Part shown: positions 8,932-25,059 of the stretch, in pieces
Layout: each line of letters opens with the position of its first letter
How positions within the stretch are numbered: position 1 is the first letter of the stretch
DNA from: Robiginitalea myxolifaciens
Lineage (GTDB): Bacteria; Bacteroidota; Bacteroidia; Flavobacteriales; Flavobacteriaceae
DNA length: 64,000 bases
Reading direction: 5' to 3'
Assembly (NCBI RefSeq): GCF_900115205.1
Contig: NZ_FOYQ01000001.1
Coordinates: 1,763,240-1,827,239 of the forward strand
Position numbers and translations under genes: made by a program
Notes under the pieces: model-generated
Told to the model about the DNA's origin: nothing
The model's database searches: none
Seen by the model: the letters and a program-made list of their open reading frames with translations, nothing else

Positions 8932-9447
8932 ATGAAAATAAGGCTTCTAATTAACGGACGGGATCAGGAAATTGAAACAGATCCGCAAACACCATTGCTC
9001 TGGGTTATTCGGGACATACTGGATCTCAAGGGCACTAAATTCGGATGTGGGAAAGCTGCCTGCGGTGCCTGTACCATACATGTAGACGGGCAAGCCGTTC
9101 GTTCCTGTTCCTATCCCGTGCAACTGGCGGCAGGTAAGGCCATCACCACTATCGAAGGGTTGGGCACGCCTGAAGCTCCCCACCCGGTGCAAGAAGCGTG
9201 GATAGAAGAAATTGTTCCGCAATGCGGATACTGCCAGCCTGGATTTATGATGGCAGCGGCTGCCCTGCTCGAAAAAACGCCCGCCCCCACTGATGCAGAA
9301 ATCGATGCCGGGATCACAAATATTTGTCGCTGCGGCACGTATTATCGGATGCGGAAGGCTATTCACCGCGCTGCGGAATTAAAAGCGCCTGTTCTTCCCG
9401 AGGAAGCCGAGGCTATTGCCATTCAAGATAATTCGGACAATTCTTAG
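8932..9447 (+). CDS. (2Fe-2S)-binding small subunit of a molybdenum hydroxylase (IorA-like)
   Basis: Electron-transfer subunit that carries two [2Fe-2S] clusters for a molybdopterin hydroxylase. It has 171 residues. The plant-type ferredoxin domain (1-77) shows Cys39, Cys44, Cys47 and Cys59 (CGKAACGAC region). The alpha-helical domain (80-155) shows CGYC (98-101) and CRC (132-134). All eight cluster ligands are present. The next gene, 3 bases away, encodes the matching large subunit, so the two form one enzyme of the isoquinoline 1-oxidoreductase type within the xanthine dehydrogenase family. No FAD subunit is adjacent, in line with this subgroup. The true substrate cannot be read from sequence. 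Confidence 0.93.
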
Positions 9448-9450
9448 GCT

Positions 9451-11628
9451 ATGAAAGGAAAAGCAAAGAAAATTTCCCGAAGGAAATTTGTAGTACGCTC
9501 CCTACTGGGTGGTGGCGGCATCCTACTCGGAACGGTGATTCTGGCCAGAAACCCTTTGAGAAGGGCCCTGTACGGGGTGCTGGAGAATCCGAAAAACCTC
9601 ACCTATTTAGGGGATATCAGTGATCCCATGCTCTGGTTCGAAATCAGACCGGAATTGCCAATCATCCTGCATAGCCCCAAAGTTGAAATGGGCCAGGGGA
9701 CTTTTACCGGTATGGTCCAGCTAGCCGCCGATGAATTAGAAGTAAGGCCTGATCAGATCCTGATAAAACACGCCGAATCGGCCAGTGGTAATATCGACGG
9801 GCTTAGCACAGGTGGAAGCACATCCATCGCTGGTTTCTGGCAACCATTACGGGAGTTATCGGCTACCCTTCGGGAGATGCTTCGAACCGAGGCAGGTAAA
9901 AAGTTAGGAGTTGCCACGGCCGACATCCGCCTGGAGGAAGGGGTGGCCAGTGCTGGATTAAAATCCTTACCCTATGGGCAGATAGCTCAGGGGGTCACGG
10001 AATGGGAAATCCCGGAGACACCAGCTTTAAAGGAAATTAAGGACTACAAATTTATAGGAAAGCCCGTTCCCAGGGTAGATCTGGAGGCAAAGGTAATGGG
10101 GGAGCCTATCTTTGGCATGGATGCGGTGCTTCCCGGGATGCTCTACGGCGCTGTCGTACAGCCTGATAAAGTCGGAGTAGTATTTGGAGGGGCGGAAATC
10201 ACTCAAGCCGAAAAGATGCCCGGAGTGGTAAAGGTCGTAGTAGAGGACGATTTTGTAGGGGTAGTGGCTAACTCCTACACCGAAGCGGAAGCGGCCAAAG
10301 CGGCCATAAAAGTCGATTGGAAACGCGAAAGGGAATGGACCACGGCAGACATTAAGTCCGCGATACAAATTGGCAAAGGGGATAAAATGCTCATTCAGAA
10401 GGAAGGCCGTCCGGGCGGAATCCTGGAAGATGCGAAAGATGACTCCAGCCTGATCACAGCTACATATAGTAGCCCGCTCGGCGCGCATGCCCAGCTGGAA
10501 CCCAATGGGGCTGTCGCTAGCGTGGAAGGGGGAAAAGCCACTGTAATCCTCTCTACTCAGGTCGTAAAACTAACCCGGAAAGAGGTTGCCGACAGACTGG
10601 GATTCAAAGAGGAGGACGTAAATATCGTACCTACCTACCTGGGAGGTGGATTCGGGCGCCGGTTACATACGCCCAATGCCGTGCATGCTGCGGTATTATC
10701 CCGAGCGGTTGGCAAACCCGTAAAGTGTTTCCTGAATCGGAAAGAGGAATTCCAAAAGGATACCTTCCGCCCGCCTACCCAACATCAGTTATCCGCCAAA
10801 TTGAGCGAAGCCGGTTCGATCGAGGCTATAGAACATCAGTTTGCCTCTTCAGATGTCATGTTCAATGCTGCATTGTTGCCAGGATTCCTTTCTACAATCG
10901 TGGGTTCTGATATCGGTACCATGCGCGGTGGCCGAATACAATACTCAGGAATCCCCAATTACCGCGCAATTTCCTGGCATTGTGAATTGCCTTTCGCTAC
11001 CAGTTGGTGGCGAAGCCTCGGACTCCTGGCCAATACCTTTGCCATTGAGAGCTTTATGGATGAACTGGCGGTGGCCGCCGGAAAGGATCCTATTGCTTTT
11101 CACCTCGATCATATCGCCGACAATGAGGAAGGGAAGCGTTTGAAAAATGTGATTACCGCAGTTCGGGACCTGGCCGCATTCCGGGATTCCGCCCGGGATG
11201 GACGGGCTATGGGATTTGCCTGCTCCACCGATGCGGGGACTCCTGTGGCCATGGTCGCTGAGGTTCGGATGGAAGGAAAGGAAATTCGGGTAGATAAGGC
11301 GTGGATGGCCATAGACCCGGGCTTTGCAGTCAATCCCGACCAGGTTCGCGCGCAATGCGAAGGCTGTATCATTATGGGGATAAGTGCTGCGATGTACGAG
11401 GAAATGCGGGTGGAAGACAGCGAACTCAAGCCGATTATTTACGGCCCCTATCGCATGGCGCAAATGAAACACTCCCCTAAAGAAATCGAGGTGGAAATCA
11501 TCAACGGAACCGGCAAGCCGGGAGCTGTTGGGGAACCACCTTTGGGCCCGGTTGGAGCCGCGATAGCCAATGCCGTATTCCGGCTTACTGGCCAACGCCT
11601 TCGGGAGATGCCACTTGCGAGGGGTTAA
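9451..11628 (+). CDS. Molybdopterin-binding large subunit of a molybdenum hydroxylase (IorB-like), Tat-exported
   Basis: Catalytic subunit of an aldehyde or N-heterocycle hydroxylase. It has 725 residues. The N-terminus reads KKISRRKFVVRS followed by a hydrophobic stretch, a twin-arginine signal (Arg10-Arg11), so the folded enzyme with its small partner is likely carried to the periplasm. Molybdopterin-contact motifs include GGGFGRR (about 400) and the final GEPPLGP, whose Glu695 corresponds to the catalytic Glu of the family. The gene follows its small subunit by 3 bases. No XdhC/MocA-type maturation gene is seen downstream, where a convergent unrelated lipoprotein lies. Isoquinoline oxidoreductase is the nearest named type; substrate is unknown. 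Confidence 0.92.
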   Translation: MKGKAKKISRRKFVVRSLLGGGGILLGTVILARNPLRRALYGVLENPKNLTYLGDISDPMLWFEIRPELPIILHSPKVEMGQGTFTGMVQLAADELEVRPDQILIKHAESASGNIDGLSTGGSTSIAGFWQPLRELSATLREMLRTEAGKKLGVATADIRLEEGVASAGLKSLPYGQIAQGVTEWEIPETPALKEIKDYKFIGKPVPRVDLEAKVMGEPIFGMDAVLPGMLYGAVVQPDKVGVVFGGAEITQAEKMPGVVKVVVEDDFVGVVANSYTEAEAAKAAIKVDWKREREWTTADIKSAIQIGKGDKMLIQKEGRPGGILEDAKDDSSLITATYSSPLGAHAQLEPNGAVASVEGGKATVILSTQVVKLTRKEVADRLGFKEEDVNIVPTYLGGGFGRRLHTPNAVHAAVLSRAVGKPVKCFLNRKEEFQKDTFRPPTQHQLSAKLSEAGSIEAIEHQFASSDVMFNAALLPGFLSTIVGSDIGTMRGGRIQYSGIPNYRAISWHCELPFATSWWRSLGLLANTFAIESFMDELAVAAGKDPIAFHLDHIADNEEGKRLKNVITAVRDLAAFRDSARDGRAMGFACSTDAGTPVAMVAEVRMEGKEIRVDKAWMAIDPGFAVNPDQVRAQCEGCIIMGISAAMYEEMRVEDSELKPIIYGPYRMAQMKHSPKEIEVEIINGTGKPGAVGEPPLGPVGAAIANAVFRLTGQRLREMPLARG

Positions 11629-13974: not shown

Positions 13975-15054
13975 ATGAGTAGTAGCAATCATCAGCGCCT
14001 GTTGGCAGATCCCGACGAGCTTTTAGAAATCCATGACCTTGTATACAGCACCCCGGAGATCCTGGCTATACTAAGGCAGCGCCATGGAGAGGACTTTGAA
14101 TATTCCGTTTCTGGAAGCGGAAAAATTAGCCAGAAGGATTTGGATCGAATCACCAGCCTGGTAATTCCACCTGCCTGGTCAGATGTTCGTATAGCAATCC
14201 TGGAGAATGCGCACCTGCAGGCTGTGGGAAGAGATGGTAAACGACGCAAGCAATATAGGTACCATCCTTTGTGGGCTCGATTGAGGAATCAGACCAAGTT
14301 TTACAAGATGGTTGTCTTTGGCCAGCGGCTACCAAAGATTCGAAAACGGGTAGAGGAAGACCTAAAGCAAAAGCGATGGACGCGAACCAAGGTACTGGCT
14401 CTGGTCATTCGATTGCTCGAGGAATCGCATATCCGAATCGGGAATGATTATTACGCAAAGCGCAATAAGACCTACGGTTTGTCTACGCTTAGAACCAAAC
14501 ACGTCGAGGTGTATCGCGACAAGATAAATTTTGAGTTCACAGGGAAACGAGGCAAGAAACACAACGTTACCATCAGAAATAAAAAATTAGCACGTCTGGT
14601 AAATCGTTGTGAAGAAATTCCCGGGTGGCAATTGTTCCAATTCTTCGATGAATCCGGGAATAAACACCGCATCGATAGCGGGATGGTAAATGAGTATATA
14701 AAGGATTCCTGTGGGGAGCTATTTTCTGCCAAAGACTTCAGAACCTGGGGGGCAAGTATAATAGCCTTTGATACCCTGGCCGAATTGGGCTTAGCCGAGG
14801 ATCAAAACACGAGAGATAAGTACTTGTTACAGGCGATAGATGTAGCGGCAGAAGCCTTGAATAATACTCGAAATGTATGTCGTAAATATTACGTTCATCC
14901 CGTAATTCAAAACCGTTTTCTAGATGGTAGTATTACGCCTTTTTTTGATAAAATTGGATCGGTGAAGCGAGAACCCGGATCCACGGATTTACAAAACAAT
15001 GAATATGCCTTGATCGAGTTATTGAAGTCATATGATCCTCAATTGAAGTTGTGA
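13975..15054 (+). CDS. DNA topoisomerase IB (poxvirus/bacterial type)
   Basis: Relaxes supercoiled DNA by a single-strand nick through a 3'-phosphotyrosine. It has 359 residues. The N-terminal domain (about 1-100) contains IPPAWSDVRI and the HLQAVGRDGKRRKQYRYHP-type region; the catalytic domain (110-320) contains RIGNDYYAKRNKTYGLSTL (with catalytic Arg/Lys), FRTWGAS and the CRKYYVHP motif, whose Tyr306 is the likely nucleophile. All these are standard for bacterial topoisomerase IB. It is preceded by about 225 bases of non-coding DNA shared with the divergent ArsC-like gene and overlaps the convergent HTH gene by 16 bases at the 3' end. Confidence 0.94.
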   Translation: MSSSNHQRLLADPDELLEIHDLVYSTPEILAILRQRHGEDFEYSVSGSGKISQKDLDRITSLVIPPAWSDVRIAILENAHLQAVGRDGKRRKQYRYHPLWARLRNQTKFYKMVVFGQRLPKIRKRVEEDLKQKRWTRTKVLALVIRLLEESHIRIGNDYYAKRNKTYGLSTLRTKHVEVYRDKINFEFTGKRGKKHNVTIRNKKLARLVNRCEEIPGWQLFQFFDESGNKHRIDSGMVNEYIKDSCGELFSAKDFRTWGASIIAFDTLAELGLAEDQNTRDKYLLQAIDVAAEALNNTRNVCRKYYVHPVIQNRFLDGSITPFFDKIGSVKREPGSTDLQNNEYALIELLKSYDPQLKL

Positions 15055-16399: not shown

Positions 16400-17500
16400 A
16401 TGAACAAGACCACACTACTACTAATTGCTTTTCTGGGTTTTCAAGTTATTTATGCACAACAAAATATTCCGATCGATACTGCCCATTGGGATATTCAGGC
16501 CCGCGCCCATGTGCTAGAAAAATTCCGGGAGCAGGATGCCATTTATCTACAGGGTGGGAGTATGACACTCCGCGATCAGACCTTTTTGAATGGGACTATT
16601 GAGTATGACGTGTTCCTCAAGGAGGATCCGGCTTTTCCCGGTCTTTACTTTCGTTTGAGAGAAGGCAACGCAGAACACTTTTACCTGCGGCCGCATCAAT
16701 CGGGGAATCCCGATGCCAATCAGGCCATTCCCCTTACCTACGGCATAGCGCCCTGGCAGTTGTACCACGGATCCAAATACGCCTATCCCTATCGCTATAC
16801 TTTTGACGATTGGACGCATGTAAAGATCGTGGTCAATGGAAATCGGGCTCAGGTGTTTTTGGATCATGCGAGCTCCCCGATGCTTTCCTGGGATCTCTTC
16901 CACGAGGCAGTACCCGGTCAGGTAGTGCTTACCGGTGGAAATGCAAGTGGATTGCATATTGCCAATATCCGCATTGATTCCCAACAGCAAGAATTGGTAG
17001 ATTTTAAGCCAGGCGAAAAGAAACCCCTGGCGAATCTGATTCCCCAGTGGCGTGTTTCGGATAAATTTGAGGAGAAGCTACTCGATAATCCCCAAGGAAT
17101 TCCCGGCCTGATTGCAGCCCGTAACTGGGAGGGTACTATTCAGGTAGAAGAAGGGACAGCGGCTAATATTAGCCGAGTGGTGAATTTGTTCGACGATACC
17201 CCAGGGAACACAGTCATGGCTCTAGTAACGGTTCGCTCGGATGGGGAGCAGCTCAAGTATTTTGAATTCGGCTATAGCGACCGCGTCGTGGTTATCCTCA
17301 ATGGGGAGCCGGTATATCGGGGCAATAATACCTTCCGATCCCGGGATTACCGCTACCTGGGTACGATTGGCCTCTTTGATGGCGTGTACCTGAAGTTAAA
17401 ACCCGGCAATAACGAACTGATGCTGGCTGTTTCAGAAAATTTCGGGGGATGGTTGGTCACAGGTCGCTTTGCTGACCCGGACGGTCTGAGTATCCGGTAG
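16400..17500 (+). CDS. Secreted protein with concanavalin-like (LamG/DUF1080-type) domain
   Basis: A 366-residue exported protein. The signal peptide MNKTTLLLIAFLGFQVIYAQ is followed by a jelly-roll domain (about 25-195) with features of the LamG/DUF1080 group: FLNGTIEYDVFLKEDPAFPGLYFRLR, then FDDWTHVKIVVNGNRAQVFLD. The second half (200-366) is a beta-rich domain ending in a galactose-binding-like pattern with LKPGNNELMLAVSENFGGW. No catalytic motif is evident, so a carbohydrate-binding or hydrolase-associated role is only possible. It is divergent from the membrane HTH protein at 15039-16283, separated by 116 bases, and may be its target. Confidence 0.72.
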   Translation: MNKTTLLLIAFLGFQVIYAQQNIPIDTAHWDIQARAHVLEKFREQDAIYLQGGSMTLRDQTFLNGTIEYDVFLKEDPAFPGLYFRLREGNAEHFYLRPHQSGNPDANQAIPLTYGIAPWQLYHGSKYAYPYRYTFDDWTHVKIVVNGNRAQVFLDHASSPMLSWDLFHEAVPGQVVLTGGNASGLHIANIRIDSQQQELVDFKPGEKKPLANLIPQWRVSDKFEEKLLDNPQGIPGLIAARNWEGTIQVEEGTAANISRVVNLFDDTPGNTVMALVTVRSDGEQLKYFEFGYSDRVVVILNGEPVYRGNNTFRSRDYRYLGTIGLFDGVYLKLKPGNNELMLAVSENFGGWLVTGRFADPDGLSIR

Positions 17501-17504
17501 GGAT

Positions 17505-17645
17505 TTACTTGTCCTGACTCGAAATCTCGATGTCCAAAGCACTTTTGTGCCTGGAATCGAAGGTGCGTCCCGCGTTGAACCGGTGATCAAAGTGCACCCC
17601 GTCGGTGTGCATGTCTGCCAGTAGCGGAGGGTAATTCTGTTCCAT
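17505..17645 (-). CDS. Possible small protein, 46 residues
   Basis: A complete short reading frame beginning MEQNYPPLLADMHTDGVHFD and ending SSQDK. It is hydrophilic, without signal or membrane segment, and contains several His and Asp residues. Codon use looks like that of neighbouring genes (GAC, CGG, GCG, ATC) and the frame occupies most of a 303-base gap between two convergent larger genes. I know no family. A near-match to the -7 element (TAGTCTTTG) lies about 20 bases upstream on the same strand. It may be real; evidence is weak. Confidence 0.4.
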   Translation of the reverse strand: MEQNYPPLLADMHTDGVHFDHRFNAGRTFDSRHKSALDIEISSQDK

Positions 17646-17732
17646 TTTGATGCATTTTTACAAAGACTAGGAATATCTTGATGTATTCTTATAGTCCCGG
17701 TCAGGTGTTTAGTAATGCTACAACAATATATG

Positions 17733-17751
17733 CATTTTGTTTAACAAAATG
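17733..17751. repeat. Perfect 9-bp palindrome in the 17.5-17.8 kb gap
   Basis: CATTTTGTT-T-AACAAAATG is a perfect inverted repeat with a one-base centre, flanked on the plus side by seven A residues. On the minus strand the T run precedes rather than follows the stem, so it is not a standard terminator for the GH9 gene that ends at 17804. It could be a protein-binding site or mRNA 3'-end structure. Apart from this and the 46-residue frame, nothing else is visible in 17501-17803. Confidence 0.4.
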
Positions 17752-17803
17752 AAAAAAAGATTAAACATTATGATGAGTTTAGGTTTTGGGGAATTGCGTA
17801 TTC

Positions 17804-19543
17804 CTAATCTGCCTGGTTCTCCAAAAACCCTAGAATGTAGGTTAGTGGGGCGTTCCAATTCAGGCATATTTCGTTGCTCGCATAACTGGGTTCCTGGTCT
17901 ACCCAGGCCTTCATCGGTGCAACATTTTCCGGATAAACCGTACCATTGGTCGTATCCTGTAATCTACTGTTGGGACCGCCGGATAACAGCCCAGGTACAG
18001 GTTCAGGGATACTATCTGCCGCGCTTTGCCTATGGTGGATAAATAAAGGTGTCCGATCTCCGAAACCGGTAACATAGCTATAACCAACGGGATTGTTTCC
18101 CAGGATATAATCGGCTGCCTGGCGTACCCCTTGCAAATATTTGGGATCGGGATCTAATTGATAAGCCTGAGCGAGTATCATTGCCGCGTTGAGCACATCG
18201 CTGTTACTTCCCCAGTGAAAATCATCGATGGGCTGAAAATAGGGAAGTTGCCCGGACCTGCGGAGGAGCTCATCGGCGCTGCCCAGGAGTCCGGCTCGAA
18301 GGTGTTGATAGTTGCTATCACTGGTTTCGAAACTCCCGGAGTCCAGCATGGAAAATACACCCAGGAACCGCATAAATCCCGTCCAGCTTTCCCCAGGGCG
18401 AAACTCAAAATCGAAGGCTTCCAGATCCATTTGCTCCAAAAAGGCGGAGTCGCCGGTGGAAACAAAGAGTTCTGCATTGGCCCAGAACCATTCGTCAGCT
18501 ACATCATTATCCCCGTATTCTCCCGTATGCACATCCTCCGGGTTGGAAAACAGGACTTCAGGGTTTTCTCTCGCCCAACGGTAAGCCTTTAAGGAGGCAT
18601 CGAGACAAGCCTTGGCATATTCGGGATTAATGTCCTGATAAACGCGGTAGGCCTGAGCCGTACAAGCTGCAAAATCCAGGGTGGCGGCCGTACTTTTTCC
18701 TACGATAAATCGTTCGGCCGTTGCCTGATGTGGCATGACCATTCCTTCAAAATTCTTGGTAGTCAGTTTATGAAAAAGGCCCCCGTCTTCATCTTGCATA
18801 GTAAGCGCCCAATCCAATTCGTATTTCAGCTCGTCGAGGTAATCGCTTACTCCATTGCCGCTCTCCGGGATATTTAATGCATCGTCTGGAATCGTTTCCG
18901 GATATTCCTCATACAATCGAAACCATTGACCCAAAGGAAAGGTCGCATTGATAATATACTTATTGTAATCCCCCGCATCGTACCAACCTTTTGGAGAGGC
19001 TATTGTACCCGGTTGCTTGCCACTGGAGGGGTGGAAGGCTACCAAACTGTCGGGGTGCCCTGCGGGTCGGTGCCATTTGCCGGCATGCTTTTCGTCCAGG
19101 GCCATTCCGGTGCGTTGAAAATACAGGCCTTTTACGCTACCTTCAAGTACGGGGTTTAAAACATCAGACCGGATCTCAAAAGGATGGGAATTACCCAGGT
19201 TTGGAATGTACAATACGTATTCCCCCGGATCCTGAAATTCGGTAAAATCCGCGATACGAACCTGCTCATTAGCCAGGGGCCAATCGAATACTTCGGATAG
19301 CTGACCCTGGTATACCGTGCGTTTAGAACCGGAATCAACCAGTGCGAATTCCAATGTAGTGGGTTCAACTGCAATCACTGCTTTTTTGATTCCATTTGGA
19401 TAATAGCCGATTTGATTTATACGGATATCGGAGCTGCCGGGTCCAATAATGGGACCGGGTTCCGGCTTGCACGCCAGCAGAAACAGAGACGAGATAAAGC
19501 CTATGAGCAAGAACTTAAAAGGGAGCTTCGTTAGTGTTCTCAT
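17804..19543 (-). CDS. Glycoside hydrolase family 9 lipoprotein (endo/exo-beta-1,4-glucanase type)
   Basis: Hydrolyses beta-1,4-glucan-type chains by inversion. It has 579 residues. The lipobox LLAC (Cys25) puts it on a membrane surface. Residues 38-130 form the N-terminal Ig-like domain usual in GH9 (CelD_N type). The (alpha/alpha)6 barrel (about 133-575) has PKGWYDAGDYNKYI with the two catalytic-base Asp residues (DAGD, 189-192), the late QAADYILGNNPVGYSYVTGFG with downstream H-H-R, and NEICLNWNAPL, whose Glu558 is the general acid. The family is intact. It is the last gene of a four-gene operon with an AraC regulator, a GH130 phosphorylase and a sugar symporter, so the substrate is probably glucomannan or a cello-oligosaccharide. 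Confidence 0.93.
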   Translation of the reverse strand: MRTLTKLPFKFLLIGFISSLFLLACKPEPGPIIGPGSSDIRINQIGYYPNGIKKAVIAVEPTTLEFALVDSGSKRTVYQGQLSEVFDWPLANEQVRIADFTEFQDPGEYVLYIPNLGNSHPFEIRSDVLNPVLEGSVKGLYFQRTGMALDEKHAGKWHRPAGHPDSLVAFHPSSGKQPGTIASPKGWYDAGDYNKYIINATFPLGQWFRLYEEYPETIPDDALNIPESGNGVSDYLDELKYELDWALTMQDEDGGLFHKLTTKNFEGMVMPHQATAERFIVGKSTAATLDFAACTAQAYRVYQDINPEYAKACLDASLKAYRWARENPEVLFSNPEDVHTGEYGDNDVADEWFWANAELFVSTGDSAFLEQMDLEAFDFEFRPGESWTGFMRFLGVFSMLDSGSFETSDSNYQHLRAGLLGSADELLRRSGQLPYFQPIDDFHWGSNSDVLNAAMILAQAYQLDPDPKYLQGVRQAADYILGNNPVGYSYVTGFGDRTPLFIHHRQSAADSIPEPVPGLLSGGPNSRLQDTTNGTVYPENVAPMKAWVDQEPSYASNEICLNWNAPLTYILGFLENQAD

Positions 19544-20415
19544 GATGGGTCAAAATGATTGGATAGTTTACGAAATTTGAGCGGGGTTGTTCCATATGTC
19601 CGTCGGAAAGAACGATTAAAATGAGAGACGTTCTGGAACCCGCTTTCCATACATACATCTCCTATGGGGATATCGGAATGGTGCAGTAACTGTGCAGCCT
19701 TACCTAACCGCATTTCCATAATATAGTGGGCAAAACTCTTTAAGGTGTGTTTCTTGAAATAATGGCTGAATGCCGAGGGGGACATATGCAGGAGTTCTGC
19801 GACCTCAGCAACCATTAATTTTCGGGTGTAATGCTTTTGTATGTAATTCAATACCGTTTCGAGCCGGGTTGATCTGTTCTTATCAATAAGGGGAACATAT
19901 CCCTGGCTGCAGAGCTGTTCGGTGTCCCGGGTTGAACCGAACAACTCAAGGATACGGGTCAGGAAGATAAAATTCTCAAATGGGTCCTGGAAATCTGCTT
20001 CGGATAACAAGGCCAATGCCTCTTGCTTATTCTTGCCTTTCAATTCGAGGCCGCGCCTGGAATGCTCAAGCCCCCGGGATACCTTTTTTAGGGCAGATGT
20101 CGCACCTAAAGGCCCGGAATACAATCGTTCCAGGAATTGAATAACAACGATTTTTGCTTCTGGAGGATTGGCGATTCCATGATCCTGCCAGCAATGGGGA
20201 ATTCCGGGAGCAATAAGCACCACATCTTCACCTGAAAATGGTTTGGTTTGATCGCCAATCATTCGGGTTCCTGTAAGGCCAAGGGTAAACGTTAACTCAA
20301 AGGCTGCTTTGTGCTGATGAAAAGGGTAGCTCAAATCTATCTCTTCTCCTTGAAAAAGGTGAACCACAAATAGTTCATTTTCACCCAGGGTCACGTGTTC
20401 TCGTAAGATCTTCAT
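19540..20415 (-). CDS. AraC family transcriptional regulator with cupin sensor
   Basis: A 291-residue regulator. The N-terminal cupin-like sugar-binding domain (about 15-105) includes YPFHQHKAAFELTFTLGLTG and the HCWQDHG segment. The C-terminal AraC-type double helix-turn-helix (about 185-285) includes KLMVAEVAELLHMSPSAFSHYFKKH and IGDVCMESGFQNVSHFNRSFRRTYGTTPLKFRK, a full match to the family signature. It is encoded inside the sugar operon, 7 bases after the GH130 gene and overlapping the GH9 start by 4 bases. It probably senses the imported sugar and activates the operon from the promoter before the symporter gene. Confidence 0.95.
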   Translation of the reverse strand: MKILREHVTLGENELFVVHLFQGEEIDLSYPFHQHKAAFELTFTLGLTGTRMIGDQTKPFSGEDVVLIAPGIPHCWQDHGIANPPEAKIVVIQFLERLYSGPLGATSALKKVSRGLEHSRRGLELKGKNKQEALALLSEADFQDPFENFIFLTRILELFGSTRDTEQLCSQGYVPLIDKNRSTRLETVLNYIQKHYTRKLMVAEVAELLHMSPSAFSHYFKKHTLKSFAHYIMEMRLGKAAQLLHHSDIPIGDVCMESGFQNVSHFNRSFRRTYGTTPLKFRKLSNHFDPS

Positions 20416-20422
20416 AAGCGAC

Positions 20423-21592
20423 TTATTGCAAGTTCCTACGGTTTGCCCGGATCAACTCCAGTCGCTGCTTTACGGATGCTGCGGATCGCATCGCATCCTC
20501 CGGAGTACTCTGGACATAGTCTAAAAGTTGTGCTACCGTGCTGCGCGCGACGTGAACCCGGGTATCCGAACTTGCATAATAGATCAGTACTTCACCATCC
20601 TTTTCCACCCAACCATTTGAGAACAGCACGTTAGAAACGTCACCCACTCGTTCGTTGCCCATAGGAGCCATGAAATGTCCCCCCGGTTTTTTAATTATCT
20701 TCCAGGGCTGCTCCAGGTCCGTTAAAAAAAGGTATAAGACATAGCGTAGGCCTGCTGCTGTATTGCGTACACCATGTGCCAGATGCAACCAGCCGGAGTG
20801 AGTTTTTAGCGGGGCGGGTCCCTGACCATTTTTGACCTCATTGATGGTGTGGTACAACCGCTGGTCAATTATTTTTTCTTCTTCAACTACGGCGTGCTCC
20901 ATAGAACCCGTAAGGCCCCAGGCAATTCCACCTCCACCACCAACCTGAATGAATCCATCCTGTGGACGCGTGTAAAGTGCATATTGGCCACCGACGAATT
21001 CCGGATGCAGCACTACGTTGCGTTGTTGCCCGGAATGGCTTATTAGATCGGGTAGACGCTCCCAATTCTTAAAATCCTTCGTTCGGGCAATCCCGCAAGC
21101 TGCCACTGCAGAAACGGTATCATTTTCCAGAGCTTCAGGATCTTTTCGTTCGGTACAAAAGGTACCATAGATCCACCCGTCTTCGTGCTGGACCACCCGC
21201 ATATCGTAAACATTAGTGTCTGGGTCCTGCGTTTCAGGCAATTTCAGCGGTTCGTCCCAAAAGCGAAAATTGTCCGTCCCGGAAGTACTTTCGGCGATGG
21301 CAAAGAACGACTTGCGATCGTGACCTTCCACCCGGGCTATCAAGAGTATTTTTCCATTCCAGAAGATTGCCCCCGGGTTAAATACGGCATTTACGCCGAG
21401 GCGCTCCTGTAAATAAGGATTCGATATTGGGTTGAGGTCGTAGCGCCATTCCAGGGGGACATGATCTGCAGTCAAGACAGGGGATTCGTATCGACGGTAA
21501 ATCCCGTTATCATCCTTACAGGGATGGTTCGCGCGATTGAGCAGCTGGAGGTGCTGCTCCCTTAGTTGGAGTAATTTCTCAGCAAAGGTCAT
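20423..21592 (-). CDS. GH130 family beta-mannoside phosphorylase, likely mannosylglucose phosphorylase
   Basis: Cleaves beta-1,4-mannosyl-glucose (or a related disaccharide) with phosphate to give mannose 1-phosphate and glucose in the cytoplasm. It has 389 residues, a five-bladed propeller without signal peptide. Motifs match subfamily GH130_1: [51 protein letters not shown] and NVYDMRVV with Asp130 at the catalytic position. The GPH symporter gene upstream overlaps by 4 bases, giving uptake plus phosphorolysis in one transcript. In Bacteroides this enzyme works after a mannobiose 2-epimerase, which is not in this window. Assignment to GH130 is firm; the precise substrate is inference. Confidence 0.9.
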
Positions 21593-22989
21593 TTCCGCAT
21601 AATTTTTAAGTCTTTTTGGATTTGCTCCATGGTAGATTCATCCAGTTTGTAGGAGCGAACGAAAAGGGCAGCAATTATCCCGGCTACACCTGCCAAAACA
21701 CTAATCATTAGACGAATCCCCTGAATGGCCACATCGGTTTGTGCAACGTTCGCTTCGAATCCCAGAAAAGATAGAATCCAACCGGTGAGGGCTCCGCCAA
21801 TGGTCCAGCCAAATTTCTGGGACATGGAGGAAGAAGAAAAGATCAGCCCGGTAGACCGCTTACCGTTTTTCCACTCCGAATAGTCTGCTATATCTGCATA
21901 CATTGCCCACAATAGGGGCATCACGATACCTGCAGAGATTCCAATTAGGATGTTCAGAGCAAAAATTGCAACCAATTGATCGGCCTGCAGGAAATAAAAG
22001 GCAATACTTAAGAGGGAAGACAGGAGGATGGAGTAAAAGAAGGTTCTTTTTTTTCCAAACCGGGTTGCCAGAGGTTTGGCAATGATGACTCCAATGATAT
22101 TGGTACCTACCCATACCGACAAGTACGCAGAGGCCAGTGCTCCGTGAGAAAAATCATAGCTTTCGCCAAACAGTGCCAGGCTCTGATCTTGAATAAAATA
22201 CTTGAAATAATACAAGGTGGTACCGTCGCGAAGGGTGTTGAAGATATTATTGAAAATCGCAGCGCCAAGAAGGATAAACCACGGTCCATTTCTCAGCAGG
22301 TTCCGAATATCTTCCTTTAAGGAACTCTGCGCCTCCTTCGGAGGTTCTAACCGCTCACGGGTACCCAAAAACGTAAGTATTAACAGGGTCGCAGCGAGAA
22401 TACCAAATACAGTGATCGCCCACTGATAACCTTTACCGTAATCGACTCCTCCGGAGCTATTTGCCCCGAAATATTCAACGAGATAGTTCGCCGTTAGCGT
22501 TACAAAAAGCCCTCCGGAGAATGCGCCGATTAGCCTCCAGGAGGCCAGGGAGGTACGTTCACCAATATTACTGGTCATCACTGCCATGAGAGACGCATAC
22601 GGCACGTTTACCCCGGTATACACCATCATCATCAAGGTGTAAGTTACATAGGCATAAACGACCTTAGCGGTTCCTGAGAGGCCCGGATTTGTAAACGTAA
22701 GGACTCCGATAAGGGCAAATGGAATTGCCAAATAGAGTAAATAGGGTCGGAATTTGCCCCACCGGGACCGGGTCCGATCACAAATTACCCCCATGACCGG
22801 ATCGTTTACTGCGTCCCAGATTCTGGTGACCAAAAACATGGTTCCCACCGTGGCTGCAGATATCCCAAAGACATCGGTGTAAAAAAATAGGAGGAACATG
22901 GAAAACAATTTCCAGAACATGGAGGAAGCGAAATCTCCCGCACCATAAGCCAATTTTTCTCGAAGGCTGATCTTTACATTGCTTTCCAT
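21589..22989 (-). CDS. Glycoside-pentoside-hexuronide (GPH) cation symporter
   Basis: A 466-residue inner-membrane sugar carrier of the major facilitator superfamily with 12 predicted spans. It begins [20 protein letters not shown], the family start motif (KxxYGxGDxA), and contains [29 protein letters not shown], the loop 2-3 signature. The second half has [20 protein letters not shown], also conserved in GPH carriers. It is first in the operon and overlaps the GH130 gene by 4 bases (ATGA), so it likely imports the disaccharide that GH130 splits. Upstream lies an AT-rich 168-base region, including the palindrome AATAATATTATT next to the start, shared with the divergent dioxygenase gene. Confidence 0.93.
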
Positions 22990-23157
22990 TAATAAATAAT
23001 ATTATTATGAAAGTATATAACCTAAATATGCTTATTATAATTCATTAAAGCATAGTAAATTCAGAAAACCATCAAAATTCAATCATTTACATCAAGTTGA
23101 GCGCAAATATTAGTGCGAATTTTGTCACAGATGAGACAATTAGAAAATCCAGGGACT

Positions 23158-23919
23158 ATGACGATTGCCAAAACCTTGAAAGGCTTGAGTAAAGAACAAG
23201 TTTCATTTTACAGGGAACAAGGTTACCTCTTGCCGGAAAAACCACTCTTTGACGCTGAAAAACAACAGGCGCTTACCACTATCTTTGAAGAGCATCTGAT
23301 CAATAAAGGGAAGAAGGCTTCCGATGAATTGGATACCCCTCATTTTCACGATCCACGACTCCTCGATTATTTGCTGGCTCCTGAGGTGCTCAACGTGGTT
23401 GAAAGCCTTATCGGACCCAATATTGGGTTATTCAGTAGTCATTTTATTTCTAAGGAACCTGGAAAGGGCCGCAGGACCCCTTGGCATGAAGACAGTGCCT
23501 ACTGGGAAGGAAAGTTCGATCAACTCGATAAAATCGTAACCATATGGCTGGCCATAGACCCTTCTAATATTGCTAACGGGTGTATGGGTGTGGTTCCCGG
23601 TACACATAACAATGGATTCTCTGAATACGAGGACGTGTCCGACCCTGAGAACAGTACATTTTCGACGGAAATTAAGCAGGGGACTTTTGACCTGGACGAT
23701 GTAGTTTGGTTTGAATTGGAAAAAGGCCAGTACTCCCTTCACGACGCACGCATTATTCACGGTGCCAACGCCAATACTTCAAAATTCCGTCGATGCGGAT
23801 ATACCATGAGATTTTTTGATTTAGAAATGAAATTTGACCAGGTCAACAACCCTAATCATAAGTTGTTTCATGCGCGGGGGGTAAATGTTGCAGGCAACGA
23901 ATTGATATACAGGAAGTAG
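23158..23919 (+). CDS. Phytanoyl-CoA dioxygenase (PhyH) family Fe(II)/2-oxoglutarate enzyme
   Basis: A 253-residue non-haem iron oxygenase. From the ATG at 23158 the domain begins LSKEQVSFYREQGYLL, the usual PhyH entry. Metal ligands are visible: HED at 110-112 (His110, Asp112) in PWHEDSAYW and His201 in HDARIIHGANAN, with Arg residues 10 bases later in codon terms (SKFRRCGYTMRFF) for 2-oxoglutarate. The frame is open back to a GTG at 23113 and an ATG at 23131, but 23158 gives the family-like start and has AGGG close upstream. It is divergent from the sugar operon and may share its control region. Substrate is unknown; many bacterial members act on secondary metabolites or sugars-linked compounds. 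Confidence 0.85.
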   Translation: MTIAKTLKGLSKEQVSFYREQGYLLPEKPLFDAEKQQALTTIFEEHLINKGKKASDELDTPHFHDPRLLDYLLAPEVLNVVESLIGPNIGLFSSHFISKEPGKGRRTPWHEDSAYWEGKFDQLDKIVTIWLAIDPSNIANGCMGVVPGTHNNGFSEYEDVSDPENSTFSTEIKQGTFDLDDVVWFELEKGQYSLHDARIIHGANANTSKFRRCGYTMRFFDLEMKFDQVNNPNHKLFHARGVNVAGNELIYRK

Positions 23920-23927
23920 GAATAACG

Positions 23928-23959
23928 GGATTGCTTTCTCGCTTAGCTCGAAAGCGGCC
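23928..23959. repeat. Direct repeat copy 1 (32 bp, palindromic core)
   Basis: A 32-base unit starting GGATTGCTTTC and ending GAAAGCGGCC. Its core holds the inverted arms GCTTTC and GAAAGC around an inner GCT-T-AGC. An identical copy follows at 23980-24011, 52 bases on. The unit begins 9 bases after the PhyH stop codon, so it could also act as an mRNA end structure. Confidence 0.8.
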
Positions 23960-23979
23960 GGCATGACTGTCTTTGGACA

Positions 23980-24011
23980 GGATTGCTTTCTCGCTTAGCT
24001 CGAAAGCGGCC
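23980..24011. repeat. Direct repeat copy 2 (32 bp, palindromic core)
   Basis: Exact copy of 23928-23959, in the same orientation, separated from it by 20 bases. Together they look like a short REP-type intergenic element with hairpin potential. They lie between the PhyH gene and tRNA-fMet, two convergent units. Confidence 0.8.
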
Positions 24012-24027
24012 TGAGAAGGGGGAGCTT

Positions 24028-24151
24028 TACTAAGAAAGCCATTCGCCTCGCTACCGCGAGCCATCGCCTTTTCCTTTCACTCCCGAGCCGAAGCAAGCTT
24101 CGCTCTTTCGGAAAAGAAAAAGCCACCAACTTTCGTTGATGGCTTTCTTAG

Positions 24152-24153
<2 letters not shown>
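24028..24153. repeat. 15-bp inverted repeat flanking hairpin-rich DNA beside tRNA-fMet
   Basis: TACTAAGAAAGCCAT at 24028-24042 is the exact reverse complement of 24139-24153. The right arm covers the last two bases of the tRNA gene and one side of its terminator. Between the arms are more short palindromes: CTCGC/GCGAG near 24047-24061 and CGAAGC/GCTTCG near 24089-24102. The left arm is therefore an inverted copy of the tRNA 3' end plus terminator arm, as might be left by a past rearrangement or insertion. Confidence 0.7.
24113..24146 (-). terminator. Rho-independent terminator of tRNA-fMet
   Basis: On the minus strand the stem AAAGCCA-CAAC pairs with GTTG-TGGCTTT around a GAAA loop with one mismatch, followed by TTTTCTTTT. 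It begins 6 bases after the tRNA 3' end, exactly where a tRNA terminator is expected. Confidence 0.85.
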
Positions 24154-24224
<71 letters not shown>

Positions 24225-24234
24225 ATGTGGACGG

Positions 24235-24265
24235 CAAATATACGAAGGATTCTCGGTTAAATCAA
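24235..24265 (-). promoter_or_regulatory. Promoter of tRNA-fMet (TTG-N20-TAnnTTTG)
   Basis: On the minus strand TTG (24265-24263) is followed after 20 bases by TATATTTG (24242-24235), a perfect Bacteroidota -33/-7 promoter. The -7 element ends 10 bases before the tRNA first base, so transcription would start very close to the mature 5' end. Confidence 0.85.
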
Positions 24266-24294
24266 AATTATAATAGCGAATTCGAGCGTGTCCC

Positions 24295-25059
24295 TCAGAT
24301 CAAACTTCCGCCGGAAACTTCTATGCGTTGGGCATTGATCCATTTGGAATCATCGTTACACAGAAAAGCGACAACCCCTCCGATGTCGTCTGGCAATCCG
24401 ACCCTGCCCAATGCCGTCAAACTGGAGATCATGGCATTGAGTTCCTTGTTATCGCGGACAGCTCCACCGCCGAAATCAGTTTCAATCGCGCCGGGGGCAA
24501 CGGTATTTGCCCTAATCTTTCGTTGCCCCAATTCCTTGGCCAAATAATGGGTAAGCACTTCGATTCCTCCTTTCATGCTGGCATACGCCGCGTACCCGGG
24601 AAATGTAAAGCGCGTCAAACCCGAGGAAATATTCACGATACTCCCGCCATTTTCCATCATTGGAAGCAATATTTGCGTTAGAAAGAAAGGTCCTTTCAGG
24701 TGGATGTCGAACATGGCTTGGAACCCTTCATCCGCGGTGGCCTCAAATGTTGCATGATATCCGGTGCCGGCGTTGTTAACCAACCCAAAAATTTTAGCAG
24801 ATGGGAATTTTGAGCTCAATGTTTCTTTCAGGGTTTTGGCAAAATCCCCAAAACTTGCCGCATCTGAGACATCCAGCTGAAGGGCAGCACCTATACGATC
24901 CTGACTCTCTATTTCACTTACGACCTCCGCTGCCTTGCTTGCGTTACCTTGGTAGGTAAGTACAACATGGAAGCCTTTTGCCGCCAAGGAGATGGCCATA
25001 TCTCTTCCCAGTCCCCGACTTCCACCGGTAACCAAAACTATTCTGTCAGACTTTTCCAT
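24295..25059 (-). CDS. Short-chain dehydrogenase/reductase (classical SDR)
   Basis: A 254-residue NAD(P)-dependent oxidoreductase. The Rossmann motif TGGSRGLG is at 11-18, NNAG at 95-98, the catalytic Ser in IVNISSG (about 145), and Tyr159-x3-Lys163 in YASMK. The C-terminal region ends in the family-like WINAQRIEVSGG. Basic residue Arg15 in the glycine motif suggests NADP(H). It stands alone, upstream (in transcription terms) of tRNA-fMet, and its substrate cannot be told from sequence or context; FabG-like 3-oxoacyl reduction is one option. Confidence 0.88.
   Translation of the reverse strand: MEKSDRIVLVTGGSRGLGRDMAISLAAKGFHVVLTYQGNASKAAEVVSEIESQDRIGAALQLDVSDAASFGDFAKTLKETLSSKFPSAKIFGLVNNAGTGYHATFEATADEGFQAMFDIHLKGPFFLTQILLPMMENGGSIVNISSGLTRFTFPGYAAYASMKGGIEVLTHYLAKELGQRKIRANTVAPGAIETDFGGGAVRDNKELNAMISSLTALGRVGLPDDIGGVVAFLCNDDSKWINAQRIEVSGGSLI

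Follow-up and report, generated by a model that had tools for sequence, protein, structure and literature searches.

We analysed a 64,000-nucleotide stretch of the Robiginitalea myxolifaciens genome (contig NZ_FOYQ01000001.1; hereafter the window) that carries, at positions 17804-23919, a compact carbohydrate operon built around a GH130 phosphorylase and, divergent from it, a gene for a PhyH-type oxygenase. On balance we read this locus, carried by a marine-type bacterium, as probably an acquired, reduced operon for a glucomannan disaccharide of plant or algal walls that became fused to an older AraC-PhyH pair. All five genes were intact, and each scored above the Pfam cut-off for its named family:

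21589..22989, minus strand: GPH-family sugar:cation symporter, 466 aa, the operon's first gene (MFS_2 329.1 bits; TIGR00792 410 bits against an NCBIfam cut-off of 231.35)
20423..21592, minus strand: GH130 of the 4-O-beta-mannosyl-glucose phosphorylase type, by sequence (Pfam GH130 82.8 bits; 3was 551.6 bits)
19540..20415, minus strand: AraC-family regulator, 291 aa (HTH_18 83.3 bits)
17804..19543, minus strand: GH9 beta-1,4-glucanase-type lipoprotein with a CelD_N Ig-like domain, 579 aa (PF00759 286.3 bits; PF02927 77 bits)
23158..23919, plus strand (open reading frame from GTG 23113): PhyH-type Fe(II)/2-oxoglutarate oxygenase (PF05721 98.7 bits)
22990..23157, no strand: shared divergent intergenic or control region, 25.6% GC

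The minus-strand unit GPH-GH130-AraC-GH9 ran from 22989 to 17804. GPH and GH130 overlapped by 4 bp (ATGA), AraC and GH9 did the same (ATGA), and 7 bp separated GH130 from AraC, confirming the claim of an earlier sequence-only reading that these four genes overlap or nearly touch as one unit. PhyH was divergent from the operon, as that reading also held, with one correction to its start. Six aligned PhyH proteins begin at the residue encoded by ATG 23158, which makes the control region 168 bp long instead of 123 bp, and the upstream GTG at 23113 is unlikely to be the true start. Scans of positions 17000-24400 found 8 promoter-like elements (shuffle mean 10.6, sd 3.7) and 11 terminator-like elements (shuffle mean 9.3, sd 3.1), with no clear excess of either.

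Enzyme identities and absent functions

The GH130 protein was compared with solved enzymes in the PDB. It scored 551.6 bits against 3was, the mannosylglucose phosphorylase (MGP) of B. fragilis, and 515.7 bits against 5ay9 from R. albus, while the best other GH130 reached 101.8 bits. Asp130 aligned with Asp131 of 3was, which we take to be the catalytic aspartate of that enzyme. In a 96-row alignment 63 polar, charged or aromatic positions were identical in at least 95% of rows, Asp130 included. Judged by its sequence the protein is a 4-O-beta-mannosyl-glucose phosphorylase of the GH130_1 type, lending support to the glucomannan-type label given to the operon in the sequence-only reading, and it was the single copy of PF04041 in the genome. 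The closest relative of the GPH symporter among the fetched loci was 67% identical and came from an Ignavibacteriae metagenome-assembled genome (L049), where it immediately precedes GH130. The GH9 protein had a lipoprotein-type signal (LLAC, Cys25) and both catalytic motif regions, DAGD at 189 and NWNAP at 562. Convergent with GH9, at window 16400-17500, was a gene whose match to 3-keto-disaccharide hydrolase stayed below the threshold (PF06439, 19.6 against 26.8 bits), and this gene was excluded as a member of the system on its Pfam score.

No SusC/SusD, GH26 or AGE epimerase was recognised in window 10001-40000 among open reading frames of at least 110 aa searched with profiles built from related loci, and neither GH94 nor GH3 was recognised in the operon. 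The host genome is 99.9% complete. The sequence-only reading had suggested looking for a mannobiose epimerase elsewhere in the genome; the profile search for the AGE-type epimerase PF07221 gave no match in the genome itself or in 20 relatives (0/21), with control matches in 2 of 14 genomes. GH26 (PF02156) had no match genome-wide, in a search that did not take in GH5 or GH113 mannanases, GH3, GH94, phosphomannomutase or phosphomannose isomerase across the genome. With no AGE-type epimerase and no GH26 in the genome, the usable sugar would be Man-Glc rather than mannobiose. The earlier claim that SusC/SusD, GH26 and epimerase are missing therefore stood for the locus and could be extended genome-wide for GH26 and PF07221, but the term SusCD-free is true of the locus only, since three SusD genes were found in the genome, in loci L127, L128 and L129. 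L129 contained GH65 and alpha-amylase genes and L128 was scanned in part only. L127 (C3:510000-529999) was the one of the three in which SusC/D genes, accompanied by ASPIC/FG-GAP proteins, lay near an AraC of the type seen in mannan polysaccharide utilisation loci (PULs).

Comparison with other GH130 loci and origin of the operon

GH130 was present at E<=1e-60 in 20 of the 199 family genomes, own included, and stretches of 20 kb were compared for the 19 other loci. Epimerase was found in 16, GH26 in 15, SusC/D in 17, symporter in 18, AraC in 18, GH9 in 1 and PhyH in 0, and not one of the 19 loci lacked epimerase, GH26 and SusC/D together. These counts back the earlier statement that typical Bacteroidota loci carry a SusC/SusD pair, GH26 and an epimerase. 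Among the best 80 of 204 loci in a wider contig set (GH130 open reading frame not called in 5 of the 80), epimerase was found in 56, GH26 in 47, SusC/D in 22, symporter in 58, AraC in 13, GH9 in 1 and PhyH in 0; epimerase, GH26 and SusC/D were all missing from 15, six of them among the 51 loci flanked by over 8 kb at both ends. The locus profiles were derived from these same loci and distant family members may escape them. Near GH130 in one locus (L040) were genes for a GMC oxidoreductase, gluconate-2-dehydrogenase subunit 3 and a TIM-barrel isomerase-like protein.

The MGP of the mannan catabolic pathway of B. fragilis is BF0772 (Senoura 2011). A partner epimerase belongs to that pathway. The window resembles it in its GH130_1-type phosphorylase and in intracellular phosphorolysis of Man-Glc, here predicted, and differs in that its genome is without PF07221 epimerase and GH26. 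The MAR_2010_75 PUL, as described in PMC9860051, shares symporter, GH130, AraC and phosphorolysis inside the cell (predicted for the window) and has SusC/D, GH26, GH5_26, GH27 and epimerase, where the window has GH9 and PhyH instead. Mannan PULs and GH130 enzymes are likewise the subject of PMC4599007, PMC8950772 and PMC6298971. In the locus of Muricauda sp. CAU 1633 the AraC was 28% identical to that of the window.

Parallels were found on plasmids of Persicobacter psychrovividus. Plasmid pPP4 held a GH9-MFS-GH130-GH9 row and on pPP5 GH9 adjoined GH130; neither an epimerase nor GH26 was recognised in these stretches. Like the window, pPP4 combines GH9 with GH130, a GPH-type MFS symporter and, on the same plasmid, an AraC-PhyH pair. 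Unlike the window, this pair was separated from the GH130 row by about 59 kb of the circular plasmid (174 kb in the opposite direction), and the symporter was 37% identical and on the opposite strand. The nearest GH9 found in plasmids (41%) was that of Hymenobacter sp. NBH84, whose locus also has an epimerase and SusD. GH130 neighbourhoods without an epimerase included those of pPP4, pPP5 and two further genomes, G539 and G272, the last two with an SSF-GH130 arrangement. GH9 near GH130_1 thus recurs in Persicobacter and Hymenobacter, and the window shares the epimerase-free form with other loci.

Within the genus GH130 was found in 1 of 10 genomes (E<=1e-30), the host's own, and PhyH likewise in 1 of 10. 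In a tree of the 96 GH130 rows the window belonged to a 13-row set (support 99/95) whose other members were Verrucomicrobiota, Chloroflexota, Ignavibacteriota, Spirochaetota and two rows left unassigned. It thus fell outside a set of 27 rows to which all those of Flavobacteriaceae (the 19 loci, G272 and a Muricauda) belonged. The GC content at third codon positions (GC3) of the five genes was 0.46-0.52, and the AgcS, Era and Der genes nearby had 0.62-0.63. Values of 0.48-0.53 were also seen in a topoisomerase IB gene, the gene at 16400 and an SDR gene. The first of these, at window 13975-15054, encodes a bacterial type IB DNA topoisomerase (PF01028, PF21338; GC3 0.475) that occurred in 1 of 10 genus genomes, again the host's own (E<=1e-60), so that with the low GC3 of the flanking genes the accessory region may exceed the operon. 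An empty site in sister genomes was not demonstrable with the topoisomerase IB anchor, as the anchor was itself confined to one of the 10 genus genomes. The operon was probably acquired, and the direction of transfer is one that we infer. Two imported modules, GPH-GH130 and the AraC-PhyH divergent pair, seem to have been brought together in the unit. Elsewhere in the window, at 8932-11628, a molybdopterin oxidoreductase was encoded in two genes (a 2Fe-2S subunit and a MoCoBD subunit).

The AraC-PhyH pair and the oxygenase

Relatives of PhyH, counted at E<=1e-40, occurred in 2 of 397 family genomes and 4 of 395 phylum genomes (own included in both), with one more on a Persicobacter plasmid (58% identity). 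The other carriers showed 76% (G539), 75% (G483), 59% (G272) and 48-49% (G564) identity to the window protein. Plasmid matches at 27-42% (H2-H14) were not counted as carriers; in two of these distant loci no GH130 was among the listed genes, in gene tables that are incomplete. An AraC faced PhyH divergently in both G539 and pPP4, at 50% and 33% identity to the window AraC. Among 395 genomes of the phylum, two had close kin of the window AraC (E<=1e-50), the host's own and G539, a count that may miss kin, as the search scored at most six candidates per genome. Against the AraCs of GH130 loci the window AraC reached 27-28% for three compared directly and 28-31% for 11 listed others. As the three compared directly share 60-69% identity mutually, the window AraC was ruled out as an ordinary mannan-PUL regulator. 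This kinship with regulators facing PhyH suggests that AraC-PhyH is an older divergent pair, with GPH-GH130 now lying between its members. The sequence-only reading had found it puzzling that a PhyH-type oxygenase shares the control region, and the kinship in G539 and Persicobacter answers this as a matter of gene history.

The neighbours of PhyH varied, with an amine-oxidase-like gene in G539 and a glycyl radical enzyme in Persicobacter. On pPP4 (L138:14001-18895) the AraC divergent from PhyH was followed by this glycyl radical enzyme, which scored under every NCBIfam cut-off, and an activase, placing O2-sensitive and O2-using enzymes side by side. In G272, of another genus of the same family, PhyH directly adjoined GH130_1 in a SusC/D-SSF locus with a different AraC upstream, and no epimerase or GH26 was recognised in the PhyH-GH130_1 stretch. 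Directly upstream of PhyH there (L130:8824-9636) was a gene for a 270-aa protein with no Pfam or NCBIfam match.

The HxD motif (WHED), the distal His ((I/L)IHG) and an Arg (RR) that we take to bind 2-oxoglutarate were conserved in all six aligned PhyH members. A chlorinating enzyme was ruled out (TIGR01762 60.4 bits against a cut-off of 226.3, with HxD intact), as was an ectoine hydroxylase (TIGR02408 24.6 against 336.5 bits). Single-sequence structure prediction gave a mean pLDDT of 33.1. In PMC12709175, PhyH dioxygenases of the PHYHD1/FJS type are described as demethylating 2'-O-methyl nucleosides; these share the PhyH superfamily and the HxD...H triad with the window protein, and that fold can strip an O-methyl group off a sugar ring. 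The PHYHD1 structure 2opw matched the window PhyH at only 41 bits. For 6-O-methyl-galactose, demethylation in marine bacteria is carried out by a P450 (PMC10033563). Uncharacterised PhyH-family members are very numerous in some bacteria, as in Poribacteria with 305 sequences (PMC3909097). By analogy a sugar-unmasking role for the window PhyH is chemically possible. That the AraC-paired PhyH subfamily is a sugar-modifying 2-oxoglutarate oxygenase partnering GH130_1, such as an O-demethylase on substituted manno- or gluco-oligosaccharides, seems to us a long shot; if true, oxidative unmasking and phosphorolysis would be joined at the loci of the window and G272. No paper on such a combination, or on PhyH together with a PUL or GH130, was among the matches listed, judged by title and start of abstract, in a search with subscription literature mostly outside its scope.

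Proposed working and alternative explanations

We infer the substrate, transport route and regulation of the operon as follows. Outside the cytosol, the GH9 lipoprotein would trim beta-1,4-gluco(manno)glucan. Beta-Man-1,4-Glc, released by GH9 or by neighbouring microbes, would pass the outer membrane through a porin or a SusC/D pair coded elsewhere and be carried into the cytosol by the GPH symporter. There GH130 would use phosphate to convert Man-Glc to alpha-Man-1-P and glucose, saving one ATP-equivalent. Mannobiose would not be converted without a PF07221-type epimerase, leaving a narrow range confined to Man-Glc. As GPH-GH130 lies between AraC and PhyH and GH9 follows AraC, both arms (GPH to GH9, and PhyH) are probably under the control of this one AraC, acting from one region.

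Several observations weigh against the reading of an acquired Man-Glc operon fused to an AraC-PhyH pair. The window GH130 departs from the at least 90% consensus of the other rows at 7 positions, including K to Q203 and D to S230. The long GH130 end branch and the midpoint root make its exact sister uncertain, and the overall GC of GH130 and GH9 resembles that of their neighbours. A shared operator was rejected, the best match between the window GPH-PhyH gap and the G539 AraC-PhyH gap (13/14 bases at 23041) being equalled by 16 of 100 shuffles; a match to the Persicobacter AraC-PhyH gap was rejected likewise (29 of 100). The Persicobacter GH9s beside GH130 were only 21-25% identical to the window GH9. 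The best solved relative of the latter, whose action on glucomannan is putative, was 6dht, the xyloglucanase BoGH9A; the two matched at 399.4 bits and aligned in their DAGD and NWNA stretches. This GH9 relationship also favours an operon for cellulose, xyloglucan or mixed-linkage beta-glucan oligosaccharides in which GH130 would have a minor side activity, an explanation we find improbable; neither of the GH94 and GH3 families was recognised among the operon's genes. According to the review cited on this alternative, the subfamilies have since been redrawn as 15 clusters.

A more serious alternative, though one we lean against, is that PhyH is a hitch-hiker, with AraC-PhyH serving another substrate and GPH-GH130-GH9 having landed between and beside the pair with no functional link. 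Such a history fits the AraC-PhyH pairs of G539 and Persicobacter, which had no GH130 in the fetched stretches, and the differing PhyH neighbours. It also fits BLAST searches against the window and related loci, in which no AraC or GH130 was recognised near PhyH in G564 and G483 showed there only a 376-aa open reading frame with a 90-aa AraC-type match. GH130_1 lay away from PhyH in G539, as SSF-GH130 without epimerase, and in G483, as SSF-GH130-epimerase with GH26, and was absent from G564 and two sister species (three of six genomes with GH130_1). The direct adjacency of PhyH and GH130_1 in G272 argues the other way, as does the finding that 5 of the 6 carriers of the PhyH subfamily also hold GH130_1 (adjacent in 2 of 6), as compared to 20 of 199 family genomes. 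This link is itself weakened by G539 and G483 belonging to one genus with differing GH130 loci, by Persicobacter having several GH130 genes, GH130_1 being present both on pPP4 with PhyH and on pPP5, and by a comparison frequency of GH130_1 taken from family genomes and not from the whole phylum. It is also possible, if doubtful, that the operon is one piece of a classical beta-mannan PUL and cooperates with the SusC/D locus L127. The L127 AraC shared 52-56% identity with AraCs from GH130 loci of Flavobacteriaceae, and its SusD (41%), SusC (35%) and FG-GAP protein (37%) matched the row adjoining GH130 in L040. The SusC and FG-GAP likeness is partly generic, with L129 matching the L040 FG-GAP protein at 35-36%, and L127 lay about 1.26 Mb from the operon. 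Of its 14 open reading frames, the 9 that were scanned included no glycoside hydrolase.

The locus is a real and slightly unusual variant of the mannosylglucose-phosphorylase system. It indicates that a mannosylglucose phosphorylase can occur in a four-gene operon without an epimerase, a GH26 mannanase or a local SusC/D pair, and GH130_1 alone is therefore no proof of a full beta-mannan PUL or of mannobiose use. The AraC-PhyH-GH130_1 arrangement provides a concrete, if modest, genetic lead on a putative function in the PhyH family.

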